NCBI RefSeq assembly: GCF_014195585.1
Contig: NZ_JACICA010000002.1
Location: 186,001 to 250,000 of the forward strand
DNA length: 64,000 nt
From: Alloprevotella rava
GTDB lineage: Bacteria > Bacteroidota > Bacteroidia > Bacteroidales > Bacteroidaceae
Direction of reading: 5' to 3'
In this document: positions 23,403 to 49,538 of the stretch, piece after piece
Layout of the letters: every line of letters begins with the position of its first letter
Position numbering within the stretch: position 1 is the stretch's first letter
Notes under the pieces: generated by a model
Database searches by the model: none
Seen by the model: the letters and a program-made list of their open reading frames with translations, nothing else
Told to the model about the DNA's origin: nothing
Translations under genes and position numbers: made by a program

Positions 23403-23537
23403 TAAGGATATCCGCCGGTAGAATAAGGATGTCAGCTGACACTATAAGGATGCCAGCCGACGCAATAAGGATGTCAGCTGACGCAATAAGGATGTCAGCT
23501 GACGCAATAAGGATATCCACGCACACAATAAGGAAGT
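23403..23537. repeat. 21-bp palindromic repeat array, copy R4 (largest)
   Basis: Six to seven units lie in direct tandem. Between 23461 and 23512 the unit, CAATAAGG plus ATGTCAGCTGACG, repeats almost exactly every 21 bp. The array lies in the 23087-23829 spacer between the divergent flavodiiron and nuclease genes. Confidence 0.9.
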
Positions 23538-23544
23538 CTACGCG

Positions 23545-31949: not shown

Positions 31950-32425
31950 ACTCTTGAACTGGTCCGACCAGTCGGACTGGTCTGACTCGTCCGACTGGTC
32001 GGATTGCCCCGATAAGCAGCTCTCTCAACAGAATCTCCGACTTGTCCGATAGAATCTCGGACCAGTCCGACCAGTCCGACTTGTCCGAGAATACCTAAAA
32101 CCTCCTGAAAAATTGACAGGAGCTTTTCTTCTAAAAGATGGAGAAATTCTTTGAGTTGTGCTTTCTGCCAAAATCTCTGCGGTATTTTTTCTCTTTCGAG
32201 AAAGGAAAAATTGGCCAAAATCCTGCGGAAAACGGAGATTTCGAGGGATTTTCGCATTTTTTCGACCGATTTCGATAAAACTCTCCCCTATCCTCCTCGT
32301 TAGTCTCCTTATTGTGTCGGCGGACGCAATAAGGATGTCAGCCGACAGCCTTATTGTGCTGACAAATACAATAAGGAAAAACGCGCACAGGAAGGGAATC
32401 TTTTTCGCTCTTTCCATTGAACGCG
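31950..32425. mobile_element. Relic copy A of the 0.7-kb TIR element
   Basis: This stretch aligns, in the same order, with the left two thirds of copy C at 48.8 kb. It has a 9-bp GTCCGA-type array, the segment around CCTCCTGAAAAATTGACAGG, then CTTTCTGCCAAAATCTC, TTCGAGGGATTTTC and a 21-bp palindromic array. Both 32-bp terminal repeats and the right-hand third are missing. It fills the 31888-32531 spacer; the match to copy C is roughly three quarters or better by eye. Confidence 0.75.
32306..32378. repeat. 21-bp palindromic repeat array, copy R5 (inside relic A)
   Basis: CCTTATTGTGTCGG, CAATAAGGATGTCAGCCGAC and CCTTATTG units are followed by a last CAATAAGG. The TTTCGAGCCATTCTCAG motif follows about 50 bp later, at 32429-32445. 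Confidence 0.85.
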
Positions 32426-32531
32426 CAGTTTCGAGCCATTCTCAGAGGCGGGAAATAAGAATTGTATTGACAAAGAACAAAGAAAGCGACCAGCCGGAAG
32501 CAGGAGATGCTCGATGGCTGGTCGCTACGCG

Positions 32532-40420: not shown

Positions 40421-40453
40421 TCCCCACGTGCTCCACAGCGCGTGGGGATTTTT
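40421..40453 (+). terminator. Intrinsic terminator after dsbD
   Basis: TCCCCACG pairs with CGTGGGGA, followed by five T residues. Confidence 0.88.
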
Positions 40454-40492
40454 GTTGAGAAAAGACAGAGCCACAGCCCAGAAGGAATAACC

Positions 40493-41165
40493 CCCCTCCA
40501 TCTCCCCCATAAGGAGGAGTGCTCAGCTTGGGTTCTCAGACTTTTCGGACCAGTCCGACCCGTCCGAGCCCCAATACTGATTCGTGCTCCTTCGCCCCTT
40601 TCGTGCTCCTTCGTGGGCTAAAAACATCAATAGAATTCCCACTTTCCCCCTCCCACGAAGCCCTTCAATCCGCGCACAAAAGGGAGAGAGCGAACAATCC
40701 AATCCTCCTGCACACGGATTTCCTTATTGCGTCAGCCTGCACAATAAGGATGTCAGCTGACAGAATAAGGAAGCCAGCTGACACAATAAGGAAAATGACG
40801 AAGAGGATAAGGAAGATTTTCATCAAAAGCAGCCGAAAAAGTGCGAAAAACCCTCGAAATCTCCACTTTCCGCAGGATTTCCCCCAATTTTTCTCTCCTG
40901 TGAAAGCAAAAATGCCACGAAAATTTTGGCAGAAAGCGTAAACAAAAAAATTTCTCCATCTTTTAGAAGAAAAGCCCTTGTCAATTTTTCAGGAGGTTTT
41001 TGGTATTCTCGGACAAGTCGGACGGGTCGGACTGGTCCGAGATTCTGTTGAAGGGGCTGCTTATCGGATTAGTCCGATAGGTCGGACCTGTCCGAGACCC
41101 AATAAAGCCACTCAAGAATCTCAAGTGGAAGCCGATCACTCCTCCTCATGGGGGAGATGGAGGGG
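40493..41165. mobile_element. TIR element copy B (673 bp, non-autonomous, MITE-like)
   Basis: Bounded by 32-bp terminal inverted repeats at 40493-40524 and 41134-41165 that match in 30 of 32 positions and begin CCCCTCCATCTCCCCCAT. Inside, read left to right, are a short 9-bp GTCCGA array, a segment containing CGAATC/GTGCTCCTTCG words, the 21-bp palindromic array R6, a conserved segment of about 190 bp, and a longer GTCCGA array. It is inverted relative to copy C. It has no transposase or other convincing gene. It fills most of the dsbD-GH2 spacer and ends 8 bp before the GH2 promoter. Confidence 0.8.
40721..40792. repeat. 21-bp palindromic repeat array, copy R6 (inside element B)
   Basis: CCTTATTG, CAATAAGGATGTCAGCTGACAG and two further AATAAGG boxes, with 20-21-bp spacing. 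Confidence 0.85.
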
Positions 41166-41172
41166 CTTTTCC

Positions 41173-48666: not shown

Positions 48667-48750
48667 AGGATTTTTTTTAGATGCAAGGGTGGGAGGGGAA
48701 AAAGCCTTTGCAGCCCAAAAGGGAAAACTCTGCATCCAAAAGGGACAAGC

Positions 48751-49482
48751 CCCCTCCATCTCCCCCATAAGGGGGAGTGCTCGGTTGCCACTTGGAGGGT
48801 TGAGTGACCTTGTTGGGACCCGGACTGGTCGGACCTGTCGGACCAGTCCGATAAGCAGCTCTCTCAACAGACTCTCCGACTCGTCCGACAGAATCTTGGA
48901 CAAGTCCGACCAGTCCGACTTGTCCGAGAACACCAAAAAACCTCCTGAAAACTTGACAAGAGCTTTCCTTCTAAAAGATGGCGAAATCTTCTGGCTGGCG
49001 CTTTCTGCCAAAATCTCCGCTGCGTTTTTGATTTTGCAGGCTGGAACAATTGGTCGAAATCCTGCGGAAAGTGGGGTTTTCGAGGGATTTTCTCATTTTT
49101 TTCGGCTGCTTTTGGTAAAAATTTTCCTAAGCATCCTCGTCGGTTTCCTTATTGTGTCAGCTGGCTTCCTTATTCTGTCGGCTGACGCAATAAGGGAATC
49201 AGCCAGCAGCCTTATTGTATCGGCGCGCAGAAAGGGGGAGTTGTTTGCTCTCTCCCTTTTGTGCGCGGATTGAAGGGTTTCGTGGGAGGAGAAAAGTAGG
49301 AATTCTGTTGATATTTTTAGCCCACGAAAGAGCACGAAAGGGGCGAAGGAGCACGAATCAGGATGGGTTCTCGGACGGGTCGGACTTATCGGACCTGTCC
49401 GACTTGGTCCGATTCGTCCGACTGGCCTGATTCGTCCGAGAACCAAAGCTGAGCACTCCCCCTCATGGGGGAGATGGAGGGG
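48751..49482. mobile_element. TIR element copy C (732 bp, non-autonomous, MITE-like)
   Basis: 32-bp terminal inverted repeats at 48751-48782 and 49451-49482 differ at only one position. Within each, CTCCCCC-ATAA-GGGGGAG-type hairpins can form. From left to right it holds a 9-bp GTCCGA array, a conserved segment of about 190 bp (CCTCCTGAAAACTTGACAAG onward), the 21-bp array R7, a segment with GAGCACGAAAGGGGCGAAGG, and a second GTCCGA array. Copy B is the same element inverted. It lies in the floA-lacZ spacer. Open frames across it look like products of stop-free repeats, not genes. Confidence 0.82.
49145..49220. repeat. 21-bp palindromic repeat array, copy R7 (inside element C)
   Basis: CCTTATTGTGTCAGCTGG, CCTTATTCTGTCGGCTGAC, CAATAAGG and a last CCTTATTG lie at about 21-bp spacing. 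Confidence 0.85.
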
Positions 49483-49500
49483 GCCCTATCTTTTCTCAAC

Positions 49501-49538
49501 AAAAAAAGCAAGCAGGGGATTTGCATCCTCTGCTTGCT
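49501..49538 (-). terminator. Intrinsic terminator after the large GH2 gene
   Basis: AGCAAGCAG with CTGCTTGCT, extended by GGAT/ATCC across one mismatch, is followed on the minus strand by seven T residues. Confidence 0.92.

Follow-up and report, generated by a model that had tools for sequence, protein, structure and literature searches.

Copies C (48751-49482) and B (40493-41165) of the window, the 64,000-nucleotide stretch of the Alloprevotella rava genome analysed here, are probably BOX- or BIME-like composite intergenic mosaics of palindromic modules that would have spread by some process in the past. The initial annotation described the two as sharing a layout in opposite orientations, and this holds, with 32-bp ends that match at 31/32 positions in C and 30/32 in B; aligned in reverse, B and C agree at 80% over the first 636 bases and at 76% in a second comparison. 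The order of GTCCGA array, S190 (a segment of about 190 bp), 21-bp array (P21), SD (a second conserved segment) and GTCCGA array is likewise present in both, as well as in a third copy, G000:C2:375175, that has one end only. Relic A is indeed an end-less relative, and extends from 31950 to about 32470, beyond the 32425 given earlier; it contains GTCCGA arrays, S190, P21 and the start of SD. Copy C is located between a family-2 beta-galactosidase gene and floA, and genes for a DsbD-like protein and a family-2 glycoside hydrolase flank copy B. The features of C, B and A, and a P21 array that stands alone, are as follows.

48747..48786, plus strand: end unit of C, alpha type; the inside reads GCCACTTG
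48829..48927, unstranded: left GTCCGA array of C, 7 exact words
48937..49139, plus strand: S190 segment of C
49147..49218, unstranded: P21 array of C, four words on the 21-bp lattice
49225..49368, plus strand: SD segment of C
49371..49439, unstranded: right GTCCGA array of C, 7 exact words, bounded by GGTTCTCGGAC / GTCCGAGAACC
49447..49484, minus strand: end unit of C, beta type; the inside reads TTGGTTCTCGGAC
40492..40528, plus strand: end unit of B, beta type
40545..40567, unstranded: short GTCCGA array of B, 3 exact words
40571..40711, minus strand: SD segment of B
40722..40791, unstranded: P21 array of B
40799..41000, minus strand: S190 segment of B
41009..41095, unstranded: long GTCCGA array of B, 7 exact words
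41130..41167, minus strand: end unit of B, alpha type
31962..32088, unstranded: two GTCCGA arrays of A, with no end unit
32097..32299, plus strand: S190 of A
32307..32376, unstranded: P21 of A
32385..32470, plus strand: first part of the SD of A
23422..23543, unstranded: P21 array without other modules; further ones start near 2773, 9455, 17626, 54875 and 63500

The end unit is about 40 bp long, has the form AGCCCCCTCCATCTCCCCCATRAGGGGGAGTGCTC, and is able to form a hairpin; the end hairpins carry uncompensated mismatches. It resembles REP sequences and BIMEs in being a palindromic extragenic unit in the range of 20–40 bp, single or paired, and an nhmmer search of 719 kb (contigs C2, C5 and C6) gave 28 matches, 18, 7 and 3 on the respective contigs, in 21 intergenic regions. 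End units, GTCCGA arrays and P21 are all found away from the composite as well, so what look like terminal inverted repeats are a dispersed unit present twice in inverted orientation; they are not necessarily ends on which a transposase acts. Concerted evolution of both ends of one element was considered and rejected, as the two ends are no more alike than shuffled pairs (0.52 of permutations were at least as alike).

The modules were mapped with profiles and word clusters on C2, C5 and C6, which comprise 718,845 of the 2,557,292 bases of the genome; the S190 and SD profiles were run on these contigs only. The SD profile gave 23 matches in 19 intergenic regions (16, 5 and 2 on the three contigs) and the S190 profile 12 matches in nine regions (11, 0 and 1), three of the 12 being the opposite strand of places already counted; the S190 copies are 63–82% identical to that of C. 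By codon-usage gene calls, all of the matches to the end unit (28/28), SD (23/23) and S190 (12/12) are intergenic, as are 68 of the 69 P21 clusters of at least three words, with one outside. There are 50 GTCCGA clusters of at least two words, and GTCCGA arrays of at least three words are found in 28 distinct intergenic regions and at one place outside. A cruder list of open reading frames puts four module clusters inside frames of at least 150 codons.

Within the core, the order of S190, P21 and SD is fixed and the spacing near-constant in seven aligned copies (of which E334 is partial and A is without most of SD), with few gaps in the S190 and SD alignment. This looks like one element copied whole, and speaks against a mosaic. 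At the same time, the module map of the three contigs and the junctions display the patterned yet variable combination of sub-modules that is a trait of BOX elements. Twelve SD-side junctions were read from the 19 SD regions: SD leads directly into an array, or what remains of one, in seven (C, B, C2:375, C2:270, C2:255, C6:140 and C2:353), one end unit lies between SD and array in four (C2:302, C2:334, C2:315 and C5:110), and C6:24 fits neither form, the end of its SD not being visible and an end unit preceding the array. Junctions with and without the end unit show that one unit has been gained or lost at a single point of an otherwise common sequence. Six short end-unit pairs, about 91–219 bp long, have either nothing recognised between the units (C2:252078, C2:307281 and C5:122853) or only a GTCCGA array (C2:315023, C2:334563 and C5:110193). 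We infer a history in which units would have spread in the past and been kept where they fell, between genes; they would have accumulated as new ones landed next to or inside existing ones, and repeated copying of the composite in a single part of the genome may have followed.

Two regular lattices underlie the arrays. A P21 array has CAATAAGG words, usually four, spaced on a 21-bp lattice, with GTCAGCTGAC-like palindromes linking them; 48 of the 69 clusters contain four words, 11 contain five, seven contain three, two contain six and one contains eight, clusters under three words being excluded by definition. The lattice accommodates 215 of 218 intervals (21 bp between words of the same orientation, 22 bp for forward-reverse and 20 bp for reverse-forward), and the orientation of the words is free, the commonest codes being FFRF (10 clusters), FRFF (8), RFRF and RFFF (7 each), and FRRF and FFFR (6 each). 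For example, inner words of the P21 arrays of B and C differ in orientation with the register unchanged. The 20-bp P21 word occurs 451 times in the genome compared to none in the control, and the GTCCGA double word 201 times compared to two. Among GTCCGA intervals of up to 40 bp, 97 of 138 separate neighbours on a 9-bp lattice, with 47 forward-forward and 22 reverse-reverse pairs at 9 bp, 23 reverse-forward pairs at 8 bp, and five forward-reverse pairs at 10 bp. Reversed-then-forward words are far commoner than forward-then-reversed ones, so that the array can fold back on itself.

The repeats are concentrated regionally. A search for the end pattern that allowed up to 3 mismatches gave 16 matches in the genome, and 0 when reversed; these counts, like those of the P21 and GTCCGA words, are not due to chance. 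All 16 lie on C2, C5 and C6, three of 28 contigs that together account for 28% of the genome. The double GTCCGA word has 59 exact occurrences among the matches listed, all of them on C5, C6 and, from 217.9 kb on, C2; its one-mismatch matches extend to C1 too. A genome-wide BLAST search with C gave 97 matches, of which many cover a single module; the long ones are confined to C2 and C6, and S190 or SD is matched elsewhere by short stretches at most. P21, in contrast, is found genome-wide. The three contigs were singled out after the matches had been seen, and the clustering is therefore reported without a p-value. The GC content is roughly 0.48–0.55 in repeat-rich parts and mostly 0.40–0.50 in poor parts, and GC skew is too weak to decide whether a terminus or a second chromosome is the cause of the clustering.

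The initial annotation proposed a search of related genomes, and no full-length or core match was found among the 57 others of the genus. In the 58 genomes including our own, whole-element matches outside it are confined to G033, mainly to the ends, and G009, to an array; with a longer query the ends match in G032 too. P21 was not found in the 57 other genomes at up to 2 mismatches. A strict unit pattern, CCTCCATCTCCCCCN{1,9}GGGGGAG, has 36 matches in 15 of 399 genomes and 7 of 30 genera of the family, and none when reversed; nine of the 36 are in the present genome and 11 in G344, and this sample includes G032, with zero matches, while G033 lies outside it. Of 23 loci read in other genomes, seven have the unit in a long coding frame that is plausible by eye (L075–L077, which are the same gene in three genomes of a single genus, together with L083, L084, L089 and L090), and the remainder have it in a short, doubtful or no frame. 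The units of G033 read (R/P)ALPLxxGDGGG at L009, L012, L013 and L014, and we note that in-frame units across G033 and the other loci give peptides such as RALPLxGGDGGGL or PSPFGGDGGG. The L009 gene of G033 (ThiF-like by eye) has an insert of 21–23 residues that is absent from 24/24 aligned homologues, one of them from the present genome; the homologues derive from a search with matches in 28 of 31 genomes (G033 included), and some are only 36–45% identical. Judged by this in-frame insert, a relative of the end unit does insert. In entering coding genes in frame, these relatives recall the Rickettsia palindromic elements, which are described in PMC10969869 as lying in frame in protein genes, although those elements are about 150 bp long whereas the present unit is about 40 bp and intergenic in its own genome. 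It is conceivable, and we put it forward tentatively, that the end unit is a mobile palindrome present across the family, with no identified transposase, that enters genes in frame in sister species and that here became combined with two phased arrays, of which one is lineage-specific, in regional intergenic composites.

The initial annotation interpreted the copies as a MITE-like family, and in its strict form, a now decayed non-autonomous family that was formerly mobilised by a transposase supplied in trans and recognising the 32-bp ends, with solo ends, A and partial copies as deletion remnants, we regard this interpretation as unlikely. Several of its components stand. The copies are apparently non-coding repeated composites between near-identical, inward-facing ends, with a constant core order and no transposase inside, and the six open reading frames tested within A, B and C have no Pfam or NCBIfam match at 0.01. 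Furthermore, B is absent from its locus in G015, a genome of another species, in which matches to the neighbouring genes are 265 bp apart rather than 1003 bp, with borders that are unreadable at about 77% neighbour-gene identity; the neighbours of C were not found side by side in G015. However, no target-site duplication is present at the eight two-ended copies (mean best direct repeat 2.63, and 2.61 when permuted), the ends are palindromic and are found singly as well, the modules occur in other combinations elsewhere, P21 occurs genome-wide without the core, and the end units cluster in three contigs. Neither a Y1_Tnp family search nor the open reading frames of two wide end-to-end intervals revealed a transposase-bearing element with these ends: C2, C5 and C6 contain no inward end-unit pairs enclosing 0.8–3 kb, and in two wider pairs, one of 6.2 kb on C5 and one of 15.7 kb on C2, the frames tested are those of ordinary genes, a third pair, of 106 kb, being on C6. 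The ends of RUP resemble an insertion sequence. The same is described for BOX in PMC3049150, whereas none was found for the present ends. Mobilisation by a RAYT transposase was also rejected, because the genome has 0 matches to Y1_Tnp, with five of 14 control genomes positive, and because Y1_Tnp presence (19 of 30 genomes) does not track the end pattern. Among ten Y1 loci of relatives a unit-like motif is seen only in L166, as a loose match to one hairpin; the flanks of one G032 Y1 gene show a different small palindrome by eye, at a place where the repeat search listed no inverted repeat. Horizontal carriage has no support either, as the whole element has no match in plasmids or phages, the end pattern none in viral contigs, and the exact end and P21 patterns none in a collection of 84,980 species, all of them collections from which the own or a very near genome may be absent.

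The lattices and the folding of the core give rise to two further alternatives to the mosaic. P21 and GTCCGA could be phased binding arrays for a nucleoid, gyrase or segregation protein, with the composite as a binding platform and the 21-bp period, corresponding to two helical turns, under selection. The regularity of both lattices (215/218 and 97/138 intervals), the free orientation of P21 words, their number (451 against 0) and the intergenic location of all but one of the 69 P21 clusters agree with this, but inversion between the lattice palindromes would give a constant register with free orientation without selection, and helical phasing would give such a pattern too. Moreover, clusters were defined by word spacing, so that badly off-lattice words could be missed, gaps are few in S190 and SD also, no binding protein was identified, and P21 was not found in the 57 congeneric genomes searched; we consider selection for binding distinctly improbable. 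Still more improbable, to the point that we give it little weight, is a core encoding a structured non-coding RNA or regulatory leader. The core is common to seven copies, and the predicted fold of C is very stable, far below shuffles on the two strands (z = −14.0 and −12.3, 20 shuffles each), but strong folding of both strands is what inverted repeats would give, and counts in favour of the palindromic mosaic. A conserved RNA structure was rejected, with no net covariation support from RNAalifold for the core (covariation term +2.56; 15 of 88 pairs changed on both sides in some copy) and a consensus fold of 3 pairs for SD alone. Rfam at the gathering score has no match at the elements, its tRNA and SAM-II matches being elsewhere in the window, and the flanking genes have no common theme. 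The Bacteroidota-type promoter consensus is TTTG-N18..21-TANNTTTG. No such motif is present in A, B or C, although this is weak evidence, with fewer than one expected at a background of 0.42 per kb.

The composite mosaic is compared here with known systems. The statement that no named element has this layout stands to the extent that no match was found in the collections and literature searched, and literal element sequences in print returned only papers that are unrelated by title and the start of the abstract. The kind of element, a composite of clustering palindromic repeats, is known, as in pneumococcal BOX, RUP and SPRITE and the enterobacterial BIMEs. According to the account in PMC3049150, the pneumococcal repeats are composite and folded, built of sub-modules, clustered and inserted into one another; they and the present repeats, which belong to another phylum, are alike, as described, in composite modules, folding and clustering. 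The boxB number is described there as variable, whereas P21 has mostly four words. REP sequences and BIMEs, as presented in PMC3733652 and PMC6006769, similarly are short palindromes, mostly intergenic, single or in inverted pairs, and in many copies, but are associated with RAYT transposases, whereas the present genome is without a Y1_Tnp gene. The BrickBuilt MITE of Porphyromonas gingivalis is intergenic with inverted ends, an internal tandem repeat and no transposase, but is described (PMC4596501) with 12-nt IS5-family-like ends and a 23-nt minisatellite, as opposed to 32–40-bp palindromic ends without a known insertion sequence. PINSR, a 188-bp repeat of Prevotella intermedia, is also lineage-specific, intergenic and thought to be non-coding, with 177 and 184 copies in two strains, but, unlike C and B, is reported in the description in PMC4755523 without terminal inverted repeats. 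In the literature surveyed, as far as its accounts go, composite palindromic repeats come mainly from proteobacteria and streptococci. The present system has several modules and two regular lattices, varies combinatorially, is strongly concentrated regionally, and has sequences for which the searches gave no match elsewhere. It provides concrete sequences for asking what moves or copies such repeats with neither a RAYT nor an insertion sequence at hand, and raises the question of whether a strict lattice means protein binding.

The first 10 bases outside the 28 ends are 50% T and 11% A, compared to 26–28% T and 30–31% A in non-coding DNA, and eight of the 28 ends are at most 25 bp from a stop codon, compared to 1.7 by random placement. 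The T-rich flanks and stop-codon proximity would suit the 3′ ends of transcripts arriving from both directions, and the short unit pairs may have this as a secondary role. The 21 end-unit regions comprise 12 co-directional, five convergent and four divergent gene pairs, compared to 249, 40 and 45 among all 334 regions, and these near-background classes count against a general terminator role of the end units. SPRITE is described in PMC3049150 as a stem followed by a U-rich tract. A further point against termination by the end units is that ordinary terminator-like hairpins adjoin B (40421-40448) and C (about 49508-49538, by eye). Beside these hairpins, just outside the beta ends, B (40447-40463) and C (about 49485-49506) have TTTTTGTTGAGAAAAGA in common; the stretch of B that contains it has a 91% copy in G009 (C1:493665-493711). 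The SAM-II riboswitch matched by Rfam is at 1421-1480 of the window, on the minus strand.
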